This document shows positions 3,454 through 36,948 of a stretch of 41,786 nt of DNA, piece after piece. The stretch covers positions 1-41,786 of the IMG/VR virus record IMGVR_UViG_3300022818_000088; one strand, written 5' to 3'. Both the position numbers and the translations under genes were made by a program. The stretch is from a virus. Within the stretch, counting starts at the first letter, position 1. Each line of letters starts with the position of its first letter. The notes under the pieces were generated by a model that was given only the letters and a program-made list of their open reading frames with translations, was not told where the DNA came from and did not search any database.

Positions 3454-4152
3454 TCAGACTGTTCTAACGCCAGCCGCTTGGGCGGTTTGACGCATTTTTC
3501 TTTCCATGTACTCTAGCATTGAAGCGGTTTCTGAATCGAATGCCCGCTGCAAGGCGGGTTCCCCGTATTTGTACAGGGCTTCCTTCTTGTCATGTTTTGC
3601 GTCGGCAGAATTTGCGATCGTAGTTTTGGCTCGCCACACCTCACTTGCCGGGATGGCGTAACCTCTATCGGTTCCAAGCTGGACGGCGCTTCTGTCCTGT
3701 CGAGGTGCCCCGCGCATATCTGCCAATCCAACAAGCTTGCGAATCGCCGGGAGCCAGCCGGACTTTAGGAAAGCAATCGATCGCATACGGGCTGCCAACA
3801 TAGCATGAATAGCCTCTGTCATTGCCGCGCCATAGAGTCCTTCCCCTTTTCCTCGCCGCTTATTTATGATGAGCGCGGCCAGTGGCACCTGAACCTCTAG
3901 ACCAAAGCGCGAGAATCGTTTAACTGTTTTCAGTGACATTCCAACCGCCTGCCTTTTCTTTACAATGATTCTGCCGAGGTCTTGTTTAATGCTTGCCGCG
4001 GCTGCCTTTGGTGTTTCGAGTGCCGCACGGCGGGCAATGAAAAAGGCTTTCGTGTCGCAAATCTTCTTCGGGTCCCGCTTAGAGAAATCCTTGTAACGCC
4101 GCATTGTAGCGTCAAACTCAGTGGTGTTGATGCGGAAAGACAACGCACTCAT
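3454..4152 (-). CDS. Putative minor tail / head-tail protein (gpZ- or HK97 gp10-like)
   Basis: A 232-aa basic protein beginning MSALSFRINTTEFDATMRRY. I chose the ATG at 4152 because it overlaps the upstream stop (4149-4151) as ATGA; the longer reading from 4176 would extend inside the neighbour. Its position after the connector and before the terminator-like gene matches gpZ of lambda or gp10 of HK97, which complete the tail top. It is Lys/Arg-rich in the first 100 residues. Function is inferred from synteny. Confidence 0.5.
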   Translation of the reverse strand: MSALSFRINTTEFDATMRRYKDFSKRDPKKICDTKAFFIARRAALETPKAAAASIKQDLGRIIVKKRQAVGMSLKTVKRFSRFGLEVQVPLAALIINKRRGKGEGLYGAAMTEAIHAMLAARMRSIAFLKSGWLPAIRKLVGLADMRGAPRQDRSAVQLGTDRGYAIPASEVWRAKTTIANSADAKHDKKEALYKYGEPALQRAFDSETASMLEYMERKMRQTAQAAGVRTV

Positions 4153-4469
4153 ACACCCTGAGCTGGATCGTTGCACTCGAACCGCAAGAAAGCTTCCCCC
4201 GGCGTTTTCTCGATTGAATCAATCCGGTAGGTGTCCCCCAGGTAAATGATGCGGTTTTTAAGGGCTGGCCCCGGTGTCGGGAATACTGAGCATCTGGCCA
4301 CAAAGGATAAATCAGAATGCAGTTTGAAACCGCCCTCGGCCAGGTCCTTGCCGCGCTTGGCTGAAGAGGGGATAATCGGATACAACTTCCCGGCCCAGAT
4401 AATCGTTGCGCCAAGCGAGGATTCGAGGTCTAGCAGTCCCTCTTCCATCAAATCAGACACGTCGCTCAT
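4149..4469 (-). CDS. Putative head-tail connector protein (gpFII-like position)
   Basis: A 106-aa protein beginning MSDVSDLMEEGLLDLESSLG and ending in a beta-rich part (IIYLGDTYRIDSIEKTPGE). Small beta-sandwich connector proteins of about 100-120 aa occupy this position in lambda-like phages, and the central pattern of a compact strand-rich domain fits. It overlaps the glycosyltransferase gene upstream by 17 nt and the downstream gene by 4 nt (ATGA). Not proven by motif. Confidence 0.5.
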   Translation of the reverse strand: MSDVSDLMEEGLLDLESSLGATIIWAGKLYPIIPSSAKRGKDLAEGGFKLHSDLSFVARCSVFPTPGPALKNRIIYLGDTYRIDSIEKTPGEAFLRFECNDPAQGV

Positions 4470-5076
4470 TCACCAGTTGCTCCGCTGTCAAAGGTGGGGG
4501 CGCTTCTGAGGTTGTGGAACTGTAACGGTAAAAGTGGAGCACTCTGGGGATATGTTCCTCACGTAAGCCCGGCATGGAGCAGAGCGGGGCAGCAAAATCC
4601 CAGTCCTCTCCGTAGCTGGCATCTGGGAAATGAGACAGGATGGCCAGCGACCGGCGCCACGCGCAGACGTGCCATGCGTTACGCTTTGCCATGCCGCCTG
4701 GGACAAACGGTTCATTGGGATTTCCCAACCTGAATTCGATGTCCCCCTCGTCGGTATTTATCTTGCAGTGCTGCCGGAACGTAATCACGTCCGGGTTGCT
4801 CACCATTGCCCCCAGGAGCGATTTGACGTAATCACCTGCTACCAGGTCATCATCATCGCAGAAAGCTACGTAGCGGCCACGGGCGGCACGAAGAAGGGAA
4901 TCCCGCTTGGCTCCTATGGTTCGCCTCCAATTGTCCATCAAGACCAAATGTTCGACGGGAAGGTCTTTAATTTGCTGGCCAATACTATCGGAAAGATTCT
5001 CCAAAAGGTCAAATCGTGTTGGAACTGCCGGCGTTAGAATCGAGAGCCAAATATTAGGAGTGGACATAGATTTCAT
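4453..5076 (-). CDS. Family 2-type glycosyltransferase
   Basis: A 207-aa protein with the GT-A nucleotide-sugar fold signature: N-terminal strand SILTPAVPTR (about 12-21), then RAARGRYVAFCDDDDLVAGD (about 84-103), in which the DDDD stretch is the DXD metal/nucleotide-binding motif. It would transfer a sugar from an activated donor; the acceptor is unknown. The start may be at 5076 or at a second ATG at 5067; both overlap the FkbM gene end. It is the last of three consecutive sugar-modification genes placed between capsid and connector genes. Confidence 0.8.
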   Translation of the reverse strand: MKSMSTPNIWLSILTPAVPTRFDLLENLSDSIGQQIKDLPVEHLVLMDNWRRTIGAKRDSLLRAARGRYVAFCDDDDLVAGDYVKSLLGAMVSNPDVITFRQHCKINTDEGDIEFRLGNPNEPFVPGGMAKRNAWHVCAWRRSLAILSHFPDASYGEDWDFAAPLCSMPGLREEHIPRVLHFYRYSSTTSEAPPPLTAEQLVNERRV

Positions 5077-5692
5077 CTTGGTTGGTGCGAAACACTAGCT
5101 GAAATCCCAGTGGCCATAGAAAGTTTGCGAATCTCGGGTTGCCGTCATTACACTCAACGCTGATAATGTGGATTACCATCCGGTGCCATTCGATTGAATT
5201 TAAGACGCGCATTTCCTGGCCCTCGACATCTATGGACAAGTAATCAATGTTGCTGACTTTGAATTCATCGAAAATCGCTTGCGCCCGGCGAACCGGAACG
5301 GTGGTTCTAGAAAATAGGCCCGACCGCAGTTTAACATATTCATCTTCAACAGCACGGTAACGCCCTGGTTCTTCTTTTTCAAGTCTTGAAATCGTGCTCC
5401 AACTTCCTTCGGCCACTAGGAATTCCGCATCCCCGTCGAAATCCGAAACTGCACATTGCAAGCAAGTGCAATTCCTGTTTGATTGCAACGATGGAAAACT
5501 GACAGGACTTGGCTCAACGCAAATCCCAGTCCATCCCCGTTCCCTCTCAAAAAAACAGGTGTTGCTATACTCAACTCCATCGTGTGCGCCAAAATCAACA
5601 AAGAATCCTCCCCTTAATTCGTCAAGTTGTTTATCAACCGCGAAGTCCTGCTTGTTTTGGGAATAGTAAACTGGTATCCCGTTCATTGGCAT
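5054..5692 (-). CDS. FkbM-family SAM-dependent methyltransferase
   Basis: A 212-aa protein with FkbM signatures: GGFFVDFGAHDGVEYSNT (SAM-binding motif I, about residues 26-43), GWTGICVEPSP with the acidic ribose-binding Glu, and IDYLSIDVEGQEMRVL, the family's D-x-E-G motif. FkbM enzymes O-methylate sugars or natural products. The ATG at 5692 follows the stop of the upstream gene by 2 nt; the longer reading to 5899 would run inside that gene and its extra N-terminus looks non-coding. It likely methylates the glycan made by its neighbours. Confidence 0.88.
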   Translation of the reverse strand: MPMNGIPVYYSQNKQDFAVDKQLDELRGGFFVDFGAHDGVEYSNTCFFERERGWTGICVEPSPVSFPSLQSNRNCTCLQCAVSDFDGDAEFLVAEGSWSTISRLEKEEPGRYRAVEDEYVKLRSGLFSRTTVPVRRAQAIFDEFKVSNIDYLSIDVEGQEMRVLNSIEWHRMVIHIISVECNDGNPRFANFLWPLGFQLVFRTNQDEIYVHS

Positions 5693-5694
5693 AT

Positions 5695-7935
5695 TTATGT
5701 CTTGCCTACTTTCGGGTTGCTGCGCACCCAGACCGGCCCCAGGGTAAGCGCATTCGGATGCCTTTCCCGCACTGCCCGCATCACCGGCTCGTGCTGCGCG
5801 TCGTGTCCTGCCAGCCAACCATCCGGCTTTAGTTTCGGTTCCCAGGAAGCCAGGTCGCGCTTCACACTGTCGTAATCGTGGGCAGCATCCACAAAACAAA
5901 ATGCAAGCGAGTTGTCGGCCACACGACCGGCCATCTCCGCACTGTCCCCCTCGAGTACCTCAATCATATCCCCCACCCCGCACCGCTTCACGTTCGCCTC
6001 AAATGCCCCCCGGATACTTCCGCCGGCGGCAGCCACCGCGGTCACATGCGCGGGTTGATCCAACTCGCCCGTAAAACTGTCCACTGCATAAAGCTTCACC
6101 CGCTTGCCTTGAGCCTTAAGCATCTGGGCCAAGTGAATAATGCTGCGCCCGAACCAAACGCCAATCTCTGCCACCGTGTCCCCGTCCTTTAACGCGCCGG
6201 CCACGAATTCATAGAACTCCCAGAAGTTATAGAAGCCGGGGACGAAGGACCAGTCGTTTCCGGATTGCAGCCGGGTAAGGATAGCCTGCCCCTTGGCGTA
6301 TTGTTCCGGGGCATTCTGAGCCGTGTAGGTAGCGTCCAATTTCTTCCCGGTCTTGATAGGATGCTCGTGAGAAAACTTCAAGTCTCTCGCCTCAGTTACC
6401 ATGCCACGCTTGTAGGCTAACTCGGTAAACCAGTTGTCAGAGAAAACCCCTGTAAACTCAGGATGGAACAGGAAGTAATCAATTGCCCAATACGCCTTTG
6501 TGCAAATGGCCATGCACAACAGCGGATCGGTTCTGACCCCGTCGCTCACCGCCAAGACCTTGGGCTTTGTAACGTCGCCAATCCTTTCTAAGATGAGCTT
6601 ATCCCATTGCGGCATGGGCAGCCAATCGTCTGACAGTTGGACAATGACAGGAGCATCGGTTTTGAATGCGCCTTTGTTCCATGCGGCCACGCAACCGCCC
6701 CCGGTTGGAATGCAAAGGTGGTGCATTCTGCTCAGTGGTGCACTGGCCTTATCGTCTTGATCGAAAACAAAAACGTGTTCGATTTGGTCTGGCCTGTCGG
6801 CCATATCCAGCCAAATCTTTCTCGCCATTGCCGCTTGCTCATAACGCCCGCGTGTAGCGTGAATCAGGGAAATCTTTGGACCGCCCGCTTTCCTCATGCT
6901 TTCAATGCGCACCGACTCAGCCTCTTCCATCCGATTATTGGCTCGTAGGGCTTGGGCAAATATGTCTTCCCCGACCCACCCATAAACGGCCTCCCGACTG
7001 TTCCACGGTGTGAAGGAAGGCAACGGTGTCGCCCGCATTTGCCGGGCGTAGGCAAGGCCATCCTCGACTTGATTGGAATTCAGAGCATCATTGGCCAGCA
7101 GCAGCAGCGCCTCGCGCCGGGTCGGGTCGGCGGCGTAGGCAGCATGTAGCAGCGGCGTCTTTTGCTCCGGCTCGCTGGCGGTATGCTGCGCCAGGTTGAT
7201 GTAGATTTCGTACTTCTCAGGTCGCCCAATGTCTTTTGATCCCAACGCCTTTTTCGCCGCATTCACGCTTCCGGCAACGTCCTTTGCTAGCCCGAGTTCC
7301 TGGTGCAAGTGATACCACAGGCCGCAGGTCATTTCCTTTTCCGGGATGCTCCGCAGGATACGCAGGTTGCGCCCGTTGCTTTCCTGCTTCTTGAGATCGG
7401 GAAGGTGAGTCACCACCACACGATTGTCTTCGATTGCTTGGGGTGGTTTGATGTGGAAATCGAAACATTCATGCACCGGGAATAGCCACTTGCCGGAGCC
7501 GCGCAGTAGCATACGCTCGCGCGGAACCATGATGCCTTTGCCGAAAATGCGATAGGGAAACACGAAGGCAGCATATCCGCCCCGCTCCGCATGTTGTCGC
7601 ACGATCTCTGCACCACTTTCGAGTATGTCATCTGAATCGCACCAGAAACAATATTCGCCGTGGGCCAGATCAAAGCTTTTCTGCCGGGCGGAAGCGAAGC
7701 TGTCAATGTGCGGCCAGTCCTTATGGTAATTCAAGTATTCCCCTACAATGAGCGGCTTCCCATTTTCCTTGCACCACTTCTCTGCGATGGAAATGGTTTT
7801 GTCTGGCTTGTTCTTTCCAATCGCCCGGACCATCACTATCTCATCTCCGATTGCGGAAAAGGACTTGATACACCTTTCTATGTACTCTTCGACGTTTCCG
7901 ACAATCATGCACAGACTGATTTTTATCTCGCTCAT
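5695..7935 (-). CDS. Multidomain glycosyltransferase-glycosyltransferase-methyltransferase
   Basis: A 746-aa fusion. Residues 1 to about 220 form a GT2-like domain (SEIKISLCMIVGNVEEYIER; EYCFWCDSDDILESG with the DXD at about 100-102). Residues about 230-345 are helical and TPR-like (LLHAAYAADPTRREALLLLA). Residues about 355-540 form a second GT-like domain (KISLIHATRGRYEQAAMARK). Residues about 575-746 form a class I SAM methyltransferase of the Methyltransf_24 type (DTVAEIGVWFGRSI; SLAFCFVDAAHDYDSVK). The ATG at 7935 lies directly after a terminator-like stem and lacks an obvious Shine-Dalgarno; the extra 25 residues of the open frame above it cover that stem. It probably builds and methylates a short glycan on a virion or host surface component. 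Confidence 0.85.
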   Translation of the reverse strand: MSEIKISLCMIVGNVEEYIERCIKSFSAIGDEIVMVRAIGKNKPDKTISIAEKWCKENGKPLIVGEYLNYHKDWPHIDSFASARQKSFDLAHGEYCFWCDSDDILESGAEIVRQHAERGGYAAFVFPYRIFGKGIMVPRERMLLRGSGKWLFPVHECFDFHIKPPQAIEDNRVVVTHLPDLKKQESNGRNLRILRSIPEKEMTCGLWYHLHQELGLAKDVAGSVNAAKKALGSKDIGRPEKYEIYINLAQHTASEPEQKTPLLHAAYAADPTRREALLLLANDALNSNQVEDGLAYARQMRATPLPSFTPWNSREAVYGWVGEDIFAQALRANNRMEEAESVRIESMRKAGGPKISLIHATRGRYEQAAMARKIWLDMADRPDQIEHVFVFDQDDKASAPLSRMHHLCIPTGGGCVAAWNKGAFKTDAPVIVQLSDDWLPMPQWDKLILERIGDVTKPKVLAVSDGVRTDPLLCMAICTKAYWAIDYFLFHPEFTGVFSDNWFTELAYKRGMVTEARDLKFSHEHPIKTGKKLDATYTAQNAPEQYAKGQAILTRLQSGNDWSFVPGFYNFWEFYEFVAGALKDGDTVAEIGVWFGRSIIHLAQMLKAQGKRVKLYAVDSFTGELDQPAHVTAVAAAGGSIRGAFEANVKRCGVGDMIEVLEGDSAEMAGRVADNSLAFCFVDAAHDYDSVKRDLASWEPKLKPDGWLAGHDAQHEPVMRAVRERHPNALTLGPVWVRSNPKVGKT

Positions 7936-7971
7936 AAAACAAAAGGCTCGCCGCGATTGGAACGGCGAGCC
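7936..7971 (-). terminator. Intrinsic terminator-like hairpin upstream of the glycan cassette
   Basis: Perfect 9-bp arms (7945-7953 and 7963-7971) with a 9-nt loop. Read leftward, the stem is followed by TTTTGTTTT that ends at the ATG of the fusion glycosyltransferase. It would terminate or attenuate transcripts coming from the capsid genes, so the downstream cassette and tail genes must depend on read-through, antitermination or a local promoter. Confidence 0.75.
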
Positions 7972-8053
7972 ATACCCGGCCAAGTTAAAGAAAAGGGGCG
8001 GGCCAATCACTCCGCCCCATTGGTTAGATTGTGTTTATGGGAACACTTTGATT

Positions 8054-8425
8054 TCAAGATTTTGCGCTGTGTTGCCGCAAATCCTTGAGCGCCACCGTGT
8101 GCTCGTGCTGGGTGGAGAGGGGATTGGCCAGAACAGCCGCGGCCTTGTCGATGTTGGCGCGCGATTCAGCGATTTGTTTCTCAAGATCATCCTTCGTAGC
8201 AATGACTTCATGAGTCGGCGACAGGAAAGTAGCTTCATCCTCGAATGCTTTGGCGACGTGGGCCAGGCCAGGGTGCCCCCAACCCGACGCATCGCGCAGT
8301 GCCCGCGCGATTCGGAGCAATGAATCGGTTGTGGTTCTACCCTTGATAGGCTGTTCCTCTTTTTCGGCAGCGACTCTCTTGGTAGCGTCCGCACTGGATT
8401 CGTGTTGTAATGATGCGTTATACAT
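8054..8425 (-). CDS. Helical head-region protein, unknown
   Basis: A 123-aa hydrophilic helical protein beginning MYNASLQHESSADATKRVAA, located just after the major capsid gene. I chose the ATG at 8425 because the longer frame (to 8695) runs antisense-free but out of phase through the capsid gene and reads as Arg/Ser/Thr noise. The alternative 119-aa frame at 8035-8394 looks like a shadow. The C-terminal half is coiled-coil-like (TKDDLEKQIAESRANIDKAA). Perhaps a head-completion or decoration protein; no domain recognised. Confidence 0.6.
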   Translation of the reverse strand: MYNASLQHESSADATKRVAAEKEEQPIKGRTTTDSLLRIARALRDASGWGHPGLAHVAKAFEDEATFLSPTHEVIATKDDLEKQIAESRANIDKAAAVLANPLSTQHEHTVALKDLRQHSAKS

Positions 8426-8459: not shown

Positions 8460-9347
8460 CTAGTCAGACCGCCCGATGATTCGGCCCGAGTTGGTGATCC
8501 CCACCACGTAGCCGTAGTTGCACTCCATCGCCATGTATCGAGTGCCGGTGGCCGGGTCGTAGAAGTCACGCAGCCCGAACGTTGCGCCACTCGATGGATC
8601 GGTGAACGCCTCGGCTCTGTCGTAGCGGTCCTTGCGCTGAGGTTCCAGATAGCGCATTCCAATTGCGATTGCGGACGGGAAGGCGATGAACGCATTCACC
8701 GAGGCGGCAGAGACAAACGAACTGTTGAGCTCGTAGAAGTCCATTCCCAGTGCCCGCATAATGCGGCCTTCCTGCAATACGCCGGTGTCCTTGAACATCT
8801 GGGCTTGCACGAAGTTGGTGACGCCCAAAAGGCTATCCATCGCGGTAGCGTCAATCAACGCCACCCGGCCAGTCTTGGGAACATTGTCCACATTCAAAGC
8901 CAGGCGGGCAGCGCGGAGTTGCTTCACGTCGAGGCCGGTACTGGCGCAGGAAGTGACCTTCGTGAAGTTGGCGGTCGTAACCAGCGTCAGCACGTCCTCC
9001 ACGACGCACTGAGCGAGGGCTGCACCCTGTTGGAAGCCGAATGCTTCCAAGTTAGAGTAGCCGTTATCCAGCGCGTCCAGATCAGTCTGGCCAATGGGCA
9101 CCATCTTGTGCCGGTTGATCGTCACGGTGATGACGCTCACATTGAAAGTGGTGATGGCGTAGGTTCCTCCGAACGTGGTTGCGGTCAGTGCGCCGATAAG
9201 CGGCACCAGTACCACGTTGCCGCGAGTGCGGCCCACGGCTTCGGGACTGAATGAGGTGGAAAAGACTCGCAGCGCGGCCAGTTCCTTTACGAATCCCTCC
9301 AGGGCAGCGCTGGCCAGCCTGGGGATATTGAGGTTTGTGTATGCCAT
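8460..9347 (-). CDS. Major capsid protein
   Basis: A 295-aa protein. Position (after protease and scaffold-like genes), size and composition fit an HK97-fold/P22-type coat protein. The N-terminal arm (MAYTNLNIPRLASAALEGFV) leads to a long helix-like stretch (ELAALRVFSTSFSPEA), followed by strand-rich segments (VSVITVTINRHKMVPIGQTD). The C-terminal region contains FGLRDFYDPATGTRYMAMEC followed by NYGYVVG, a pattern common in coat proteins of this kind. A 334-aa open frame on the opposite strand over this gene (8250-9254) is a shadow. It forms the icosahedral shell. Confidence 0.85.
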   Translation of the reverse strand: MAYTNLNIPRLASAALEGFVKELAALRVFSTSFSPEAVGRTRGNVVLVPLIGALTATTFGGTYAITTFNVSVITVTINRHKMVPIGQTDLDALDNGYSNLEAFGFQQGAALAQCVVEDVLTLVTTANFTKVTSCASTGLDVKQLRAARLALNVDNVPKTGRVALIDATAMDSLLGVTNFVQAQMFKDTGVLQEGRIMRALGMDFYELNSSFVSAASVNAFIAFPSAIAIGMRYLEPQRKDRYDRAEAFTDPSSGATFGLRDFYDPATGTRYMAMECNYGYVVGITNSGRIIGRSD

Positions 9348-9385: not shown

Positions 9386-9811
9386 TTACTCCCAGGAAAG
9401 GTCGATCGCGGCTTTGTTCTTGCGGTAGAAGGCCACCCGCTCGCGTGGATCGGTGATCTCCTTATACTTCGCCACCAGGCCGGTGTCCTTGACCGCCGTG
9501 CCGGCGGCGGCCGGAATGGTTTCAGCCTTCACGCCCAGGCCGGCCAGCGTCTCAGTGACCTTGCCCTTTTCTGCGGCAACCGAGGCGGTCAGTGTAGCGA
9601 GTTCGGTGTCCTTGGCCGTTAGTGTCTTACCCGACAACTCGGCGGCGGCCTTGAGTTCCTTGATCGTGGTGTCGCGGGCGACGATGTCATTAACCGCAGT
9701 TGCCAGCTTTCCAGTAAGCTCGGTGATTTGATCGGCGGACGCTTTCGCCGTCGAAAAAAACGACTTCACTTCATTGCGAAACTCACTCAGCGCCAAAAGT
9801 ATTTTGTCCAT
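9386..9811 (-). CDS. Putative scaffolding protein
   Basis: A 141-aa, highly helical, Ala/Thr/Lys-rich coiled-coil-like protein (TELTGKLATAVNDIVARDTT) ending in KNKAAIDLSWE. The ATG at 9811 is preferred over TTG at 9832 because it has AAAGGTG a few bases upstream. It overlaps the protease C-terminal coding region by 29 nt. In lambda and many HK97-like phages the scaffold is encoded at or near the end of the protease gene and just before the capsid gene, which matches this arrangement. Confidence 0.65.
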   Translation of the reverse strand: MDKILLALSEFRNEVKSFFSTAKASADQITELTGKLATAVNDIVARDTTIKELKAAAELSGKTLTAKDTELATLTASVAAEKGKVTETLAGLGVKAETIPAAAGTAVKDTGLVAKYKEITDPRERVAFYRKNKAAIDLSWE

Positions 9812-10649
9812 ATACACCTTTGGCGTCGTCAACGCGCCGAGTGAAAACCTCCTGAGAAATTACCTCGTCAACCAAGCCAACATCCCTTGCTTGACTACCG
9901 ATAAATACCTGACCTTGCATGGTCTCATCATCCACCGGGCGATTAGCTTGGACGTGGGTTTTGAACATCCCAGCATAGTGATCCACGATGCCCTGCATGT
10001 ATTCTCGCTGCGCCGGCGTCAAAGACGTGCCGGGAAAGCCGGTCCCCTTGAGAGGCCCCGAGGCTATCAGGTCCACCTTCACGCCCTGCATTTCGTAGGC
10101 TAGGCTTTCGTCCAACATCGCAGACATTGCCCCGATGGAACCTACTACCGAGGACGGGGTGCAGTAAATCTCATTGGCCCCGGCGGCAATGTTGTAGGCC
10201 GCACTGCACATTTGCGTGTCTGTGATTGCCTCAATCCGTATGCCAGCATCCCGAATAGCTGCTACCTTGGACGCCACTTCCTGATTGCCCTGGCACATGC
10301 CACCAGGCGAGTCTATTTTCAGCACGATCTTTTCCAGGCCGCGCGCGTGTCCGGCAGTCTCAAGGTCGCGGCTTACGTCGTCATAGCTACATGCACCGCA
10401 CATTTTTTCGATAAGTGAGGCGTGTTGAACCAGCGTTCCGCAAACGGGGATAGTGGCCACACCGTCAACGAATTCAAACTTGGGCATCGGATTGCCAAAG
10501 AAGTCCACTTCCGGGTTGCCCGATGGTGTCTGTTCCGGACCCATCCCTTCAAGTTTGCGGCGGACAATGGCGTGGACAGATGACCAGCCCTCGCGTGTGA
10601 TTGCCCACGGCTCAAAATAGACGGCTTGGATTATTTGCTGGAACTTCAT
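9783..10649 (-). CDS. Prohead protease, S49 (SppA/lambda gpC-like)
   Basis: A 288-aa S49 peptidase. IVLKIDSPGGMCQGNQEVAS (about 108-127) is the family oxyanion/strand region, TDTQMCSAAYNIAAGANEIY (about 143-162) holds the nucleophile Ser149, and ASGPLKGTG supplies the candidate general-base Lys201. It processes scaffold and prohead proteins during maturation. The start at 10649 overlaps the portal stop as ATGA. The C-terminal end overlaps the scaffold-like gene. Confidence 0.92.
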   Translation of the reverse strand: MKFQQIIQAVYFEPWAITREGWSSVHAIVRRKLEGMGPEQTPSGNPEVDFFGNPMPKFEFVDGVATIPVCGTLVQHASLIEKMCGACSYDDVSRDLETAGHARGLEKIVLKIDSPGGMCQGNQEVASKVAAIRDAGIRIEAITDTQMCSAAYNIAAGANEIYCTPSSVVGSIGAMSAMLDESLAYEMQGVKVDLIASGPLKGTGFPGTSLTPAQREYMQGIVDHYAGMFKTHVQANRPVDDETMQGQVFIGSQARDVGLVDEVISQEVFTRRVDDAKGVYGQNTFGAE

Positions 10650-12184
10650 ACTTTTACTTGCGGCTTGGTGACGGGTGGTGTCGGTGAAGGATTGGCCGAC
10701 CGCTGTTCGAGTAAATCCATTGCTCGCTGGAAATTCACCTTGCCCCCGCTGGCTGCCTCAATCTCAGAAGCATCCCGGACATTGGCCAGAATCTCACTCT
10801 TCCGCTGGCGCTGGATTTCTTCCCAGTAACGGCCCTGCTTTTGAGCAATGAGCGCCTTTGTGGTGGTCCCCATCTTGAGGTTCTCACGGTCGGCCTGCTC
10901 ATCATTGCCGGCATCAACACTGAGTGGCTTTGGCAAACCAAAATCCCATCCGAAATAAGCGTCCTTTGAATCGGGGTTACGGCTCAGGAAACCGTTCTTC
11001 ATGGCCTTGGCCAGAGCGTAGCGGACGGCCCGCCAGGTGCGCCGCAATCCCAATCTCTGTTGCTTCCAGATGCTCTGATTTCCCAAATCAACCACGAGGC
11101 GAGTGGCCGCACGGCCTGACTCATTCAGGTAGATGAGCTCGTAAGCCCAGCCGACCGCCTTGATCCCCCGGCGCTCGATGCGTGCGATGAAGTTTTCGAC
11201 GTTCGGGTGCGGGGTAGAAAAGTTAAGGCCCTCGAGCGCTTCCCCGTCTGTCGAACGCAGGTAGTACATGTCCCCGCCCTGAATCTCTTCATAGGTGACG
11301 GTCTTTTCCGCGCCGGTTGAGTCTGTGACTGTCTCTTCAGTGAGAATTTCATTGCCCAGGCCCGCCTCACCCTCGGCGTTCTTGTGCACAAGTCCAACCG
11401 AAGACGCTCGCTTGATGCCCCGCTTTAGGAACGAGTCAATGTCCTGCAAGTCCATCCAGTCAAGGGAACATCGCCCGACCAGGGGAATGCCCCGGCCTTG
11501 ATCTTGCCATTCGGGCAGGTAGGCAAGGTCCCCACGGCCGCCGTAGCCGATTGAGAAATTCTGGAAGGTCTCCGCGCCAGCCTGGTCATTTCCCATCACG
11601 CGGGCGGCTACGGGAGTGCCCGCACTGTTGAAGATGATGCCATCAAATATCTTGTCGCCCTTGTAGTCGCCCTCCTTCACCGTGTCGCCAGCAAGGCCCC
11701 GGCCGCTTCCGATTCGTGCACCGCTGATAAACTCCACCTTGGGGAACCCCGTCTCGTCTTCTGTCAGCAGCATCAAATCGTCGCCGTCCCGGTCCCAGGC
11801 AATTCCGCTCAAGTAAAGCAATGTGAGCCAATCGTGCCGACCATGCCTGTCGGCATTGGGAAGGAATTGGTCTTTGAGAAAGGCCGTCGCTTCCAGTCCC
11901 CATTTCAGGTTTGCTCCGGTATAGTGCGGGTCCCAGGCATCACCGAAAGCCCAAAAATTCTTGTCAATGATGGCACTGCCGAGGTTTGCCAATTGGGCAA
12001 ATAACTGGCGCGAATATTGAACCATCTCTGCCCGGTCAAAGCCGGATACCGCAAGTTTAATGTCAGTGGCTATCGTGCGGCGGGGCAGATAGTTCTGGGG
12101 AGCGTGCCGGGTGCTTGGGTAAAGGCCGTATGAAAGCGGCCTGCCGGTCGGACCGTAAAGCAACGGGTGGCGGGCGGGTTTCAT
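10646..12184 (-). CDS. Portal protein, lambda gpB-like
   Basis: A 512-aa protein of the lambda-type portal family. Features include an N-terminal Asn/Trp-rich region (FGDAWDPHYTGANLKWGLEA), GIAWDRDGDDLMLLTEDETG, the lambda-portal-like block GRCSLDWMDLQDIDSFLKRG (about 239-258), and the C-terminal KTLIAQK-type helical tail rich in basic residues ending PPVTKPQVKV. It forms the dodecameric DNA channel at one vertex and docks the terminase. It is coupled by ATGA overlaps to both the gpW-like gene and the protease gene. Confidence 0.9.
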   Translation of the reverse strand: MKPARHPLLYGPTGRPLSYGLYPSTRHAPQNYLPRRTIATDIKLAVSGFDRAEMVQYSRQLFAQLANLGSAIIDKNFWAFGDAWDPHYTGANLKWGLEATAFLKDQFLPNADRHGRHDWLTLLYLSGIAWDRDGDDLMLLTEDETGFPKVEFISGARIGSGRGLAGDTVKEGDYKGDKIFDGIIFNSAGTPVAARVMGNDQAGAETFQNFSIGYGGRGDLAYLPEWQDQGRGIPLVGRCSLDWMDLQDIDSFLKRGIKRASSVGLVHKNAEGEAGLGNEILTEETVTDSTGAEKTVTYEEIQGGDMYYLRSTDGEALEGLNFSTPHPNVENFIARIERRGIKAVGWAYELIYLNESGRAATRLVVDLGNQSIWKQQRLGLRRTWRAVRYALAKAMKNGFLSRNPDSKDAYFGWDFGLPKPLSVDAGNDEQADRENLKMGTTTKALIAQKQGRYWEEIQRQRKSEILANVRDASEIEAASGGKVNFQRAMDLLEQRSANPSPTPPVTKPQVKV

Positions 12185-12600: not shown

Positions 12601-12631
12601 GCGGGCCGGACTTTCGCATGGTCCGGCCCGC
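12601..12631. repeat. 11-bp perfect stem-loop upstream of terminase
   Basis: GCGGGCCGGAC (12601-12611) and its reverse complement GTCCGGCCCGC (12621-12631) flank a 9-nt loop, ending 20 nt before the small terminase start. Possible cosB/TerS binding element, or an mRNA 5' structure restricting terminase expression. Confidence 0.75.
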
Positions 12632-12651: not shown

Positions 12652-13161
12652 ATGGGTGCAATGCGATTAGATTCAGATACCATCTCCGCAGACGATCTTG
12701 AGGCCCTTACCGGCCTGACAGACAGGCGCCACCGCCAGCTTGCAAAGGAGGGCTACTTCCCCCCGCCTGAGCGTAGTCAATACCAACTCACCGCCACGAT
12801 CCATGGCATGTTCAAGTACTACGCCGAGCAACTCCACAAAAAGGATGACAACCTTGCCAGCGAACGCAAGAAATACACGGTGGCCAGGCGAGAAAAGCTC
12901 GTGCTCGAGACTGAAATCTTGCGCCGACTGTACGTGCCACGTTCAGAGATTGCGCCCATCCTCCGAAACTTGGCCGCAAACCAGCGAGCCAGCCTGCAAA
13001 ACAAGCTCGAAAATGAGTTGTCGGTGAAGCTCTCCGGACTTGACCCCATCACGATCCGCGCGCGCATGGTGGAAGCAGTTGACGAAATATGTGACCTCTT
13101 CAGTGTCAGCACAAAAAAGTGGCTGGATGCTCCGCCCGAACCGCAACACTTGCGAGATTGA
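12652..13161 (+). CDS. Terminase small subunit, Nu1-like
   Basis: A 169-aa protein. Residues about 10-45 form a winged-helix/MerR-like DNA-binding motif (LEALTGLTDRRHRQLAKEGY then FPPPERSQYQL), typical of Nu1-type small terminases. The middle is a charged helix (NLASERKKYTVARREKLVLE) for oligomerisation, and the C-terminus contacts the large subunit (inference). It recognises the packaging site and hands DNA to the motor. Two in-frame starts exist (12652, 12661). It lies 3 nt upstream of the large subunit gene and diverges from the portal operon. Confidence 0.85.
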   Translation: MGAMRLDSDTISADDLEALTGLTDRRHRQLAKEGYFPPPERSQYQLTATIHGMFKYYAEQLHKKDDNLASERKKYTVARREKLVLETEILRRLYVPRSEIAPILRNLAANQRASLQNKLENELSVKLSGLDPITIRARMVEAVDEICDLFSVSTKKWLDAPPEPQHLRD

Positions 13162-13164
13162 CGC

Positions 13165-15048
13165 ATGGAAGATTGCTCAACAAAAACCGCTGTAGCAGAA
13201 GCGGTAGCGCCGGGCTGGCAACGGCCTTATCGTGGCCAGATTTACGAATTCGGCAACAGCATAGACCTGCAGAACGGCTACGCCATCAAGGGTAGTTTCG
13301 ATGTCCAGAAATCCCGCTACCTCATCGAACCATTCAAGGCCCTGTTGAATCCGAATGTGCGCGAGGTTGTCATTCTTAAAGCCGTCCAGACTGGCGGCTC
13401 GCTCATAGCTGACATTTGGGTTCCCTACCTGATTCGATGGGACCCGGGCGACCTGCTTTGGCTTTTCCAGGATGATGACTTCGCGGGAAAATACATGGAT
13501 GAACGGTTCATCCCTGGCTGCCTGAAGCGCACGCCGGGCATTCTCGATATGCTGGCCAATGGCGGTAGGTTCGCGCTACAGCGAAAGCAACTGCTGCTTC
13601 CCTTGATGGCGGCAATGATTGGCGGGTTAAACGAGAATAACGTCCAGTCTCTCTCAAAGCGGTACCTGATTATTGACGAGGCATGGCTGTCCGGCCAGTC
13701 GGGATTGATCTCTCAGGCCAAGGCCCGCACGACGGCCTATCCCTACACCAGCAAGACACTGATCGTGTCGCAAGCCGGGGAAGAGGGTGATGACCTTGAC
13801 GCCGAGTGGCGTTCATCGAACCAGAATGAGCTTCACTTTCTTTGCCCGCACTGTGGCTATGCCCAGCCGTTTGAATTCTCGCGCAAACGTGATGACGGTA
13901 GCTGGGCGGGAATGAAATGGGACACCACTGACGCCACCTGCCCGAATGGCCGATGGAACTTTGACACGGTGGCACAGACCGCCCGCTACGAATGTTTCAA
14001 GTGCCGGGAGCGTATCGAGGACAAGCCCGAGGTCCGGCGCAAGCTGAATGATTCTCTACACTACATCCCTGCCCGAACAGATTCGGAGGCTGGTATTATC
14101 GGCTTCCATTGGCCGGCAGAAGCGTCCTCAGATATTTCCTTTGCATCACTGGTGGTGAAATACATCAAGGCGAAGCAGGCGGATAATGACCATGCCTACA
14201 AGCTTCCGCTGATGGAGTGGTACAAGAAGCATCGCGCTATTCCTTGGAATCCTAACCTCACGATGGACATTAAGAGGGCGACGTATGAGCCTTACGACGT
14301 GGCCTCCGGCTGGCCTGAGGAGGCGTATCGCTTCCTGACTGTGGACTGCCAGAAAGACCTGAAAGACTTCTGGTTCATTGTCCGCGCAGTGGCAATGTCA
14401 GGGGAGTCGCGCCAGCTTGACCGCGGGCGGGTAGAATCATGGGATCAGGTTGGCTCAGTCCAAAAGAAGTGGATGGTGAAGGACCAATTCGTTTGGATAG
14501 ACGGCGGCTATGAGCAGACCAGGTGCGCCCAGGAATGTGTCCGGCACGGCCACGTCGGCACGGCTAAGGTGGGCCGGGAGACAAAGAAAATCTGGTTCTG
14601 CTGGAACTTGCTGAAAGGTTCCGGGTTGGACACGTTCATTCACGAAGACCCGCGCACTGGCGTAAAGGAGCGGCGCATTGTGTCCCGGATGGACTGGATT
14701 GACCCGAACATCGGGCAGAAGCATGAGGCGGTCCCCGGCGTGCCGGCCAACACCAAGGCCCCGTTCTACTCGTGGAGCAATCTGCACGTGAAGGACATTC
14801 TGCGGCGGCACCGGGACCAAGACCATGCGCCCAAGTTCCTGTCGTTGCAGGATGATGAGCCAGACGGGAATATGTGGGGGTACACAGCTCAGATGAACTC
14901 AGAGATTCGAGAGCAACAGTACGATGAGAAGGGCCGCAAGATTTCAGTCTGGCGGCCTATCCCACGGCGGGCAAATCACTGGTGGGATTGCGAAGCCATG
15001 CAGGTTGCGGCTTCGATTATCGTTGGGGTTATCGGCGGGGAGCAGTAA
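13165..15048 (+). CDS. Terminase large subunit, lambda gpA family
   Basis: A 627-aa packaging motor. KAVQTGGS (about 72-79) is the degenerate Walker A of GpA proteins, RYLIIDEAW (about 166-174) is Walker B with the catalytic Glu, and zinc-ribbon-like cysteines occur at CPHCG (about 227-231) and CFKCRERIE (about 277-285). RFLTVDCQKDLK (about 389-400) is the start of the nuclease domain with its catalytic Asp. Near full length for the family (about 640 aa). GpA-type enzymes cut cos sites. Its stop is 3 nt from the stop of the convergent gene, with no terminator between them. Confidence 0.95.
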   Translation: MEDCSTKTAVAEAVAPGWQRPYRGQIYEFGNSIDLQNGYAIKGSFDVQKSRYLIEPFKALLNPNVREVVILKAVQTGGSLIADIWVPYLIRWDPGDLLWLFQDDDFAGKYMDERFIPGCLKRTPGILDMLANGGRFALQRKQLLLPLMAAMIGGLNENNVQSLSKRYLIIDEAWLSGQSGLISQAKARTTAYPYTSKTLIVSQAGEEGDDLDAEWRSSNQNELHFLCPHCGYAQPFEFSRKRDDGSWAGMKWDTTDATCPNGRWNFDTVAQTARYECFKCRERIEDKPEVRRKLNDSLHYIPARTDSEAGIIGFHWPAEASSDISFASLVVKYIKAKQADNDHAYKLPLMEWYKKHRAIPWNPNLTMDIKRATYEPYDVASGWPEEAYRFLTVDCQKDLKDFWFIVRAVAMSGESRQLDRGRVESWDQVGSVQKKWMVKDQFVWIDGGYEQTRCAQECVRHGHVGTAKVGRETKKIWFCWNLLKGSGLDTFIHEDPRTGVKERRIVSRMDWIDPNIGQKHEAVPGVPANTKAPFYSWSNLHVKDILRRHRDQDHAPKFLSLQDDEPDGNMWGYTAQMNSEIREQQYDEKGRKISVWRPIPRRANHWWDCEAMQVAASIIVGVIGGEQ

Positions 15049-31570: not shown

Positions 31571-31801
31571 ATGAAGCTTCCACCCTGTGACCATGATGGA
31601 TGCGGTCCAATAGGCTGCCGGCGCAGTGGGGAATTCGGCGGCGTGTGGACCGCGACGGGAGAGCGCATAAGTGACGGGGTGAAGGTCATCGAGGCAACGC
31701 ATACCAACGGATACCCGTCCGATTTACCATGGTGGGAGTGGCAAACCATGCCGCCGTACATAAAGCCGTCCGGCCCACCAGAACCGGACGGACCACTATG
31801 A
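31571..31801 (+). CDS. CDHxGC-motif microprotein
   Basis: A 76-aa protein beginning MKLPPCDHDGCGPIGCRRSG. Paralogue of the N-terminus at 25859. The rest (FGGVWTATGERISDG; WWEWQTMPPYIKP) is Trp-rich. ATGA overlap with the PP-loop gene. Zinc-binding is likely, function unknown. Confidence 0.6.
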   Translation: MKLPPCDHDGCGPIGCRRSGEFGGVWTATGERISDGVKVIEATHTNGYPSDLPWWEWQTMPPYIKPSGPPEPDGPL

Positions 31802-32586
31802 ATGAAGTTGCCCTGTCGAACGTAATCTCATTCTCTGGTGGGGTGTGCAGTTTCTGGACTGCGGCTCGCGTGGTTGCACGTTACGGTAAGGAAAATGTGA
31901 CGTTGCTCTTTGCGGATACGAAGATGGAAGACGAGGACCTCTACCGATTCTGCCGGGACGCAACACAATACCTGGATGTGCCGCTGACAACCATCGCGGA
32001 CGGCAGGTCTCCGTGGCAGGTATTCGGCGACGAAGGCATGATGGGCAACAGCAAAGTGGACCTGTGCTCGCGCATCCTCAAACGCGAACTGTTAGACAAA
32101 TGGACTCGCGCGCACTGCCTAGAGATGACCAGCACGCTCTACGTCGGAATAGACTGGACTGAGGAACATCGGCTGACCCGCCTCCGATTGCGTAAGCACG
32201 GCTGGCGCATAGAAGCGCCCATGTGCGAGCCGCCGCTGTGGGACAAGTGCCGAATGCTCGCGGAACTGCGGGCAATCGGTATCGAGCCGCCCAGGCTCTA
32301 CAAGCTGGGATTCCCTCACAACAACTGCGGAGGATTTTGTATAAAGGCGGGGCAGGCGAACTTCGCGCACCTCCTGAGAGTGATGCCGGAACGGTATGCA
32401 TATCACGAGGCTCAGGAGGAAGCGATGCGTCTCCGGCTTGGCGACGTTTCCATAATGAAAGACCGGCGCAACAAGACTACGGCAACCCTGACAATGAAAC
32501 AACTCCGAGAACGCATCGAACGGGGAGAATCTTTTGACCGTTTTGAGTGGGGAGGTTGTGGATGCGCCATAGATTCTCCCGACTAA
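31798..32586 (+). CDS. PP-loop ATPase, PAPS reductase/adenylating family
   Basis: A 262-aa protein. VISFSGGVCSFWTA (about 9-22) is the PP-loop (SGG) motif that binds ATP to adenylate substrates. Conserved-looking cysteines at DLCSRIL (about 90), HNNCGGFCIKAG (Cys177, Cys181) and GGCGCA (254, 256) could hold an iron-sulfur cluster or carry sulfur. Relatives act in sulfate reduction, tRNA thiolation and DNA phosphorothioation; this one cannot be assigned. The ATG at 31798 overlaps the upstream stop; it closes the early operon before the convergent terminator. Confidence 0.8.
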   Translation: MNEVALSNVISFSGGVCSFWTAARVVARYGKENVTLLFADTKMEDEDLYRFCRDATQYLDVPLTTIADGRSPWQVFGDEGMMGNSKVDLCSRILKRELLDKWTRAHCLEMTSTLYVGIDWTEEHRLTRLRLRKHGWRIEAPMCEPPLWDKCRMLAELRAIGIEPPRLYKLGFPHNNCGGFCIKAGQANFAHLLRVMPERYAYHEAQEEAMRLRLGDVSIMKDRRNKTTATLTMKQLRERIERGESFDRFEWGGCGCAIDSPD

Positions 32587-35541: not shown

Positions 35542-36948
35542 TCACGGTCGCCAGTTAATGAGTTGCAACGGTCCCCCGTTTGTAGGCGCGAAGGTTTTCC
35601 CAAACTGATAGTCATTGATCTGACCAAAAAGAAACGACACCGTATTGGACTTGATCTGTTCAGGGTCGGGATTCAGCGCCCAGTTGGGTGAATATGTGTT
35701 GCTGAGATAGAACTTTGTCCATGTCTCAAAGTTGTCACTCGACTTGTAGCAGACGATGCCGGGCATTTCTCCAGGGAAATTGTTGGGCAGCACTACGTAA
35801 CTGGTGCCATTAACTGAAACAATAGATGGGTAAGGATACGGATTCAGATTGTTGATGCTGCGGTCGTTCGATGAAATGGCGAAGTTGGCAGTCCATGCGA
35901 ATCGGTTAAGCGTGAGTTGATGCTCAGTTACGCTATTCCCGGTTGAGTTTTCCATGACAAATAGGTTCCACTGGTTACCAAGGCGAGTATAGGCAACCTG
36001 TGCCACCCCATTGGAAGTCAAACAGAAATCACATTGTACGTTGAAATCTCGACCTGAAAGCGCAGGAGTTACATTCCCAATGTTGAGTGGATAACTGAGC
36101 AAGGAACCATCGAAATTGTAGATGTTTCCATCAGTGGCGAACTTGAATAAATACTGATTTGTCCCAATAGTTTTGAGAGACAACGACCACCATAGGTTTC
36201 CCGACGAATCGAACTTCGGAAGCCCGTTCAAGTACTGTGAGGACGTTGGTGTATTTAATCCATTCCAAACAACACAGGTGGCATCCACCCACTTCGACGG
36301 CTGAGCCCAGGCAGTAGTGGTCGTGTTGTATTGATACATTATCTGATCCGATGTGCCAGAATCCCCCTTCCGAAAGGTTAAATATAGTTCCCCTGCATTG
36401 TCTTTGAACAAGAACGGATAAGTGGACCTGGTTTCTATTAAAGAACTCACCAAGGGGTAGATTAGTCCCGTCCAGTTGGTGACCTCGTATGGAAACGAAG
36501 TGCGAATGTAAAGGAGGTTGGTGGCGTGTGCCCCATAGAAGCAATGACCGAAACCAGTCTTGTCGAACTCAAGTGACGCGATCTTGTGCTCATCATCGTT
36601 GTTGTTGTACGGAAGCTGGAGAAGATAAAGGAGGTTGGTGGTCGTTGTGATCGTGGTTATACCACTAGATAAGTCCTTATCCGTGAAGCAAAGGTGCAAG
36701 TTGGTATTGTAGTAAACCCCGTATTGATGAGTTCCTGCGGTACAAAGCTGGTTCTTGGCGATGCTGATTCCATTCAAGCCGCTCGCCGTATAGGCGTTTA
36801 GGATGGCGGGATTTGTGTCAGCCAACCATAGCAGCGACGGCGGATTAGTCGTAGTTCCACCGACTCCAGACAATGAACCTAAACCGCTAAGGGTCTGGCC
36901 TAGGCAGGAGACGGCCAGGAATAGATAGATAATCGGCATTAATTTCAT
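35542..36948 (-). CDS. Secreted BNR_4-type beta-propeller (sialidase/lyase-like)
   Basis: A 468-aa protein. MKLMPIIYLFLAVSCLGQTL is a Sec signal with a possible lipobox (AVSC). The rest matches BNR_4: DEHKIASLEFDKTGFGHCFY, STYPFLFKDNAGELYLTFRK with GDSGTSDQIMYQYN, then LPKFDSSGNLWWSLSLK. The family includes polysaccharide-lyase-like propellers and sialidase-fold proteins. No catalytic residues can be assigned by eye. ATGA overlap with the YadA-like gene. A virion depolymerase or a secreted glycan-binding protein are both possible. Confidence 0.75.
   Translation of the reverse strand: MKLMPIIYLFLAVSCLGQTLSGLGSLSGVGGTTTNPPSLLWLADTNPAILNAYTASGLNGISIAKNQLCTAGTHQYGVYYNTNLHLCFTDKDLSSGITTITTTTNLLYLLQLPYNNNDDEHKIASLEFDKTGFGHCFYGAHATNLLYIRTSFPYEVTNWTGLIYPLVSSLIETRSTYPFLFKDNAGELYLTFRKGDSGTSDQIMYQYNTTTTAWAQPSKWVDATCVVWNGLNTPTSSQYLNGLPKFDSSGNLWWSLSLKTIGTNQYLFKFATDGNIYNFDGSLLSYPLNIGNVTPALSGRDFNVQCDFCLTSNGVAQVAYTRLGNQWNLFVMENSTGNSVTEHQLTLNRFAWTANFAISSNDRSINNLNPYPYPSIVSVNGTSYVVLPNNFPGEMPGIVCYKSSDNFETWTKFYLSNTYSPNWALNPDPEQIKSNTVSFLFGQINDYQFGKTFAPTNGGPLQLINWRP

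Follow-up and report, generated by a model that had tools for sequence, protein, structure and literature searches.

The subject of this study is a set of three adjoining sugar-modification genes, designated here A, B and C, that belong to an uncultured phage represented by IMG/VR virus record IMGVR_UViG_3300022818_000088; the whole 41,786 nt of this record is referred to below as the window. On the minus strand, the genes are ordered portal, S49 protease, scaffold-position gene, major capsid protein (MCP) gene, an orphan open reading frame (ORF), A, B, C and small structural genes (Table 1). Genes A, B and C lie end to end, with 2 nt between the stop codon of A and the start of B and an overlap between B and C, and the interval between the MCP gene and A holds the orphan ORF together with two terminator-like hairpins; an Rfam search returned no match. 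An initial annotation had placed a fusion of two glycosyltransferases (GTs) and a methyltransferase (A), an FkbM methyltransferase (B) and a GT2 enzyme (C) between the capsid gene and the next structural genes, and this description, including its coordinates, is confirmed. Neither of the two genes following C has a Pfam or PHROG match, and the label "connector" given to them derives from their conserved position.

Domain composition of A, B and C

Profile searches of A return the Pfam families Glycos_transf_2 at residues 7-131 and Methyltransf_24 at residues 590-712, as well as a PHROG glycosyltransferase match at residues 354-543. The AlphaFold 2 (AF2) model of A (pLDDT 88) contains three enzymatic domains and a tetratricopeptide repeat (TPR) linker, with helices at residues 186-349 and TPR profile matches at profile positions 198-332. 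The first module matches GmaR and SunS in a PDB profile search, and residues 1-290 superpose on SunS and ThuS (Z 22-24, rmsd 2.8-3.5, 268-274 residues); specifically, residues 1-284 align with SunS 7msp at Z 23.8 over 268 residues. The PF00535 match, the fold and invariant aspartates identify a GT2 domain of the GT-A type with an acidic DXD-type motif: DSDD at about residues 100-103 is mostly invariant, and D100, D102 and D103 are invariant among 17 homologues. That a TPR, or helical-repeat, module follows this domain is indicated by profile, by model and by the SunS fold. GmaR is known to add N-acetylglucosamine (GlcNAc) to flagellin, and its TPR region has been proposed to recognize the protein (PMC9638930). 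By analogy with these enzymes, A would transfer a sugar to a polypeptide side chain.

The second GT-A domain of A carries an SDD motif at about residues 435-437 that is invariant in the homologue alignment, and the nearest GT-A enzymes to residues 352-559 are WrtF (Z about 18) and RmlT, AvpGT and GalNAc-T2 (about 17). The best structural neighbors of residues 551-743 are the sugar O-methyltransferases MeT1, SpnH and MycF (TylF-like), with Z of 18-20, and the phrog_2675 label "DNA methyltransferase" attached to A is therefore misleading. Although the initial annotation regarded the fusion as unusual in itself, full-length relatives of A occur in dozens of loci at 53-62% identity, and a median dN/dS of 0.105 places A under purifying selection. 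The methyltransferase domain is absent from A of some relatives (e.g. L186, L187, L189 and L190), and from most of the copies linked to the phrog_1005 capsid family described below. No full-length A was found among 50,697 cultured-phage records. The second GT domain has lone homologues (41-46%) in chromosomes of Verrucomicrobiota and in a pair of large viral contigs (L057-L064, L193, L194), and those chromosomes are a possible host source of this domain.

Gene B scores above the FkbM profile cut-offs (PF05050, 77.2 bits against 22.7; TIGR01444, 56.9 against 37.7). The initial annotation had envisaged a three-gene cassette in related phages; B is however absent from the cassettes of all relatives, in which other genes fill the slot between A and C, and FkbM homologues in viral contigs number only three, all weak (27%). 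In L190, where A has no methyltransferase domain of its own, the slot holds a class I methyltransferase, and in L164 it holds another GT2 gene. Judged from these comparisons of sequence, B is a lineage-specific insertion and the conserved unit is A plus C. Gene C matches profiles of PglI-, GalT1- and chondroitin-synthase-type sugar-extending enzymes. The N-terminal half of gp108, encoded in the GT cluster of the mycobacteriophage Che8, is a homologue of C (34% identity, E 2e-22, hhalign 99.5%), and Che8 is reported to have a glycosylated capsid; when A is compared with gp108, only the methyltransferase region aligns, at a probability of 14%. A second homologue of C is LittleE gp15, encoded directly after the major head protein.

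Association of A and C with the capsid gene

An MCP-seeded search of viral contigs yielded 45 loci, to which remote MCPs were later added. When unique loci with an MCP score of at least 400 (close or intermediate) and 3 kb of downstream sequence are counted, A directly follows the MCP gene in all 51 of 51 (IMG/VR sample), and in relatives C usually follows directly after A. Searches of genomes and viral contigs seeded with A, and thus not conditioned on MCP, similarly place full-length A directly downstream of MCP wherever the upstream sequence suffices. Most of the remoter MCPs are without A. A single clade of the MCP tree (100/99 support) unites 33 cassette-bearing MCPs, none of its members having lost the cassette, and outside it lie 17 cassette-free rows (non-redundant outgroup MCPs) along with the cassette-bearing L196 on a long branch. 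The cassette-free locus L149, in which the head-closure-position gene comes soon after MCP with a single 79-aa ORF between them, shows the empty arrangement. Among cultured phages, no MCP of this lineage was found except a distant full-length match in Verrucomicrobia phage P8625 (about 25%), the annotated genes of which show no cassette. This distant MCP and the metagenome-assembled genome (MAG) contigs L051-L054 tentatively point to Verrucomicrobiota as hosts.

The same enzyme type accompanies a second capsid family. The MAG contigs L055 and L056 carry an A-type enzyme after a phrog_1005 MCP, and a further scan, with these and related A sequences as seeds, gave 529 relatives, of which 80 loci were fetched and examined with the two seeds. 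A phrog_1005 MCP lies directly upstream of the GT-GT enzyme in 61 of the 61 loci with room upstream, mostly at a distance of 84-154 nt. The two MCP families share no profile similarity (hhalign probability 1%), and the enzymes of both align end to end across both GT domains. Since one enzyme follows two sequence-unrelated MCP families, the association is not a property of a single capsid lineage.

Inheritance of the genes was compared by Mantel tests on pairwise identities across 24 non-redundant loci. MCP and A (0.81), MCP and C (0.72), and A and C (0.81) co-vary strongly (p 0.0005), whereas correlations with the portal are not significant (MCP-portal 0.06, A-portal 0.11); the portal does co-vary with TerL (Spearman 0.85). 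In 34 locus pairs the genes have MCPs of at least 65% identity yet portals below 40%, and the converse is seen between the window and L054 (portal 75%, MCP 51%). Divergence of A does not track that of the second small structural gene downstream of C (3454-4146; Spearman 0.22).

The slot between MCP and A varies in content among relatives. Some loci carry ORFs in the MCP-A or A-C slots that resemble GIY-YIG or HNH homing endonucleases (L028 2641-3417, L029 1806-2720, L161 6037-6651), a likeness judged by eye, with no Pfam or PHROG match for the L161 ORF. Several encode small proteins rich in Thr, Ala and Gly between MCP and A (L116 6363-6737, L156 4193-4606, L164 8600-8878), which may be decoration proteins and could serve as alternative acceptors for the glycan. 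Hairpins are common here as well: within the first 300 nt 3' of MCP they occur in 37 of 61 cassette-bearing loci versus 1 of 27 cassette-free loci, and inside distinct MCP-A gaps in 41 of 61, whereas the reverse strand gives 13 and shuffled sequences give 0.4. These hairpins probably lower expression of the enzymes relative to the capsid protein, and shared ancestry contributes to their distribution.

Alignment of the MCPs points to several candidate acceptor residues. Ser/Thr columns occupied in every aligned cassette-bearing MCP and rarer in cassette-free MCPs are T58 (27% of the latter), T74 (18%) and T285 (18%), and the T57 column is less distinctive (55%). In the AF2 model of MCP, residues 51-70, which include T57 and T58, form a poorly ordered loop, and T285 belongs to a loop close to the C-terminus. 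T57, T58, T74 and T285 are offered as leads only. The C-terminus of MCP, a reported glycosylation site in mycobacteriophages, was considered as a site and rejected, as the last residues are not consistently Ser or Thr (KRDD in L003, KRLD in L024).

Several other features of the window lie apart from this cassette. The genes for TerS (12652-13161) and TerL (13165-15048) occupy the plus strand and diverge from the portal-capsid operon, and a 12-bp GC-rich hairpin (12601-12631) sits just 5' of TerS. A PAPS-reductase-family gene (31729-32586; phrog_424, E 1e-44) lies in the early or moron region. A BNR-repeat protein (35542-36948; PF15892) adjoins an 824-aa tail-region protein and may be a tail component that binds or cleaves glycans.

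Table 1. Features of the portal-capsid operon and the A-B-C genes in the window
Feature	Position	Strand	Basis
Portal	10646-12184	-	
Scaffold-position gene	9386-9832	-	
MCP, HK97-like fold, proposed acceptor	8460-9347	-	phrog_283 E 4e-20; AF2 and Foldseek
Orphan ORF, 123 aa, MCP-A slot	8054-8425	-	no Pfam or PHROG match
Second terminator-like hairpin (GGGGCGG...CCGCCCC TTTTCTTT)	7995-8018	-	sequence
Terminator-like hairpin with U-tract, directly upstream of A	7945-7971	-	
Gene A, 746 aa, fusion of GT2-TPR, second GT-A and sugar-O-methyltransferase-like domains	5695-7935	-	ATG at 7935
A residues 1-350, GT2 catalytic domain then TPR helices, SunS/ThuS/GmaR-like	6886-7935	-	PDB profile, fold, conservation
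A residues 352-559, second GT-A domain	6259-6882	-	fold; PHROG 14945
A residues 560-743, S-adenosylmethionine-dependent methyltransferase, sugar O-methyltransferase-like	5707-6258	-	PF13578; fold
Gene B, FkbM-family methyltransferase, 212 aa	5054-5692	-	PF05050, TIGR01444; best start ATG 5692
Gene C, small GT2 glycosyltransferase, 207 aa, alternative start 5067	4453-5076	-	PF00535, phrog_14775
Small structural protein, head-closure position (putative)	4149-4469	-	conserved order MCP-A-C-this gene; identity from position
Structural protein after head-closure position, neck or tail completion (putative)	3454-4146	-	conserved order; identity from position

A proposed capsid-glycosylation module and its alternatives

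The explanation favored here, at a probability of roughly 0.7, is that A and C constitute a capsid-glycosylation module acting on MCP. It builds on features determined directly, namely the genes present and their arrangement, the folds of the domains, their conservation, purifying selection and the shared inheritance with MCP, and it agrees with the suggestion, made initially from location, that the enzymes act on a virion protein: A and C are firmly tied to the capsid gene in a large number of uncultured phages, co-vary with it, and the first module of A folds like peptide and protein GTs. Which sugar is added, to which protein and site, in what sequence of steps and to what benefit is inferred. 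Specifically, the module, with the MCP gene on one side and the next structural gene on the other, would be expressed late, with the hairpins after the MCP gene reducing its dose relative to the capsid protein. The N-terminal GT2-TPR module of A would recognize newly made MCP and place a first sugar on Ser or Thr; the second GT-A domain and C would add further sugars; and the methyltransferase domain of A, with the FkbM enzyme B in this phage, would O-methylate the glycan. The result would be a virion bearing a short methylated glycan coat, which may mask the virion, confer resistance to proteases or host surface defenses, or stabilize the shell.

Several points weigh against this proposal. 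The group is known from genes alone, with no virion isolated, and the contrast at T57, T58, T74 and T285 is confounded with the shared ancestry of the groups compared. In addition, within the closer clade alone co-variation is weaker (MCP-A 0.51, A-portal 0.44, MCP-portal 0.24, MCP-C 0.15), so that the statement on co-variation holds at the broad scale. It is also conceivable, if less likely, that neighborhood alone explains the linkage, although the scaffold gene, equally close to MCP, co-varies poorly with it (0.18, with scaffold identities near saturation).

Among the alternatives, it is unlikely, though worth considering, that the enzymes glycosylate another virion protein, such as a tail tube, decoration or head-fiber protein, instead of or besides MCP, their late-operon position being incidental. 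Glycosylation of the capsid and of the tail tube is reported for mycobacteriophages (PMC12619734), and the MCP-A slot of some relatives encodes additional small proteins rich in Thr and Ala. These small proteins are, however, missing from many loci that retain A, while A follows two unrelated MCP families and its divergence follows MCP rather than the gene at 3454-4146. A role in remodeling the host cell surface, by superinfection exclusion or GtrABC-like seroconversion, would accord with the GT2 enzymes typical of such morons, with the PHROG labeling of these families as moron/auxiliary metabolic genes and with the resemblance of the FkbM insertion to polysaccharide-cluster enzymes. We consider it very improbable given the head-operon site, the fixed linkage to MCP without loss and a fold nearest to peptide-acceptor enzymes. 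Moreover, the Pfam and PHROG matches of A, B and C are not to GtrA or GtrB, none of the three has a membrane segment (maximum 19-aa hydropathy 1.41, 0.78 and 0.72, respectively), and no flippase is present among the genes scanned.

Phage GTs also hypermodify DNA (Pyle et al., 2024, as cited in PMC12619734), but glycosylation of phage DNA by these enzymes is scarcely credible when the linkage is to a capsid gene and not to DNA metabolism, when A combines a peptide-GT-like GT2-TPR fold with a sugar-methyltransferase domain, and when no base-hydroxymethylating enzyme occurs among the genes scanned, a scan outside which some small ORFs fall. There is similarly little to recommend the idea of a selfish or hitch-hiking cassette that landed beside MCP and has no role in the virion. 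Mobile-type ORFs, GIY-YIG- or HNH-like by eye and without a family match, do occupy the same slots in some relatives, and neighboring genes tend to recombine jointly; yet purifying selection, invariant catalytic residues, the absence of loss across the MCP clade and the association with a second MCP family are not what such a cassette would predict.

Capsid glycosylation by A and C, if correct, has wider implications. Capsid glycosylation is known experimentally from a handful of actinobacteriophages, whereas more than 100 environmental loci, with two MCP families, have A next to the capsid gene, and glycosylated phage heads may be far commoner than the cases proven in cultured phages. The data also yield a prediction of the acceptor, a possible new tool enzyme for protein glycosylation, and a marker gene for glycosylated virions in metagenomes. 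A bolder reading, which we hold tentatively and at somewhat less than even odds, is that two sequence-unrelated MCP families of uncultured tailed phages are obligately tied to one capsid-modifying GT family that travels with the capsid gene when packaging genes swap, and that the glycan coat is structural and perhaps relevant to assembly. Were this true, the coat would be part of the heads of a whole guild of environmental phages rather than an accessory trait.

Comparison with known systems

Freeman et al. (2023, Cell Host Microbe; as cited in PMC11256854, PMC11600133 and PMC12619734) reported virion glycosylation in mycobacteriophage Che8 (F1) and in cluster O phages of the Corndog type, and the MCP of Che8 is described as bearing covalent glycans (PMC11256854). 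Those phages resemble the present one in encoding GTs and a methyltransferase, C being homologous to Che8 gp108, and theirs are the systems in which glycans on capsid and tail tube are reported. In Che8, however, the three-GT cluster that includes gp108 lies near the 3' end of the genome, at a distance from the capsid gene, whereas here the cassette, known from genes alone, is fixed to the MCP gene and contains a GT2-TPR-GT-methyltransferase fusion. A parallel in gene order is the Mycobacterium phage LittleE (Omegavirus), in which four GT genes, including the C homologue gp15, lie between the major head protein and the head-tail connector; this arrangement shows that the peripheral location initially taken as usual for sugar-modification genes is not general. 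LittleE differs in that its gp17 has no similarity to A, it carries extra kinase and GT genes, and its MCP is different.

At the level of domains, A shares with the peptide S-glycosyltransferases SunS and ThuS and the Listeria flagellin O-GlcNAc transferase GmaR a GT2 domain followed by TPR-like helices. It differs from them in having two more catalytic domains and in being encoded by a phage beside a capsid gene; identity is only 17-18%, and the acceptor of A is a predicted one. Likewise, MeT1, SpnH and MycF are the nearest folds to residues 551-743, but in A this domain is fused to glycosyltransferases. A literature search that lacked most subscription papers found no description of a capsid-linked enzyme family like A. 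Taken together, phage-encoded virion glycosylation in actinobacteriophages and capsid-adjacent GT genes in LittleE were already known; what is new here is the GT2-TPR-GT(-methyltransferase) fusion and its near-obligate linkage, in uncultured phages, to capsid genes belonging to two families.

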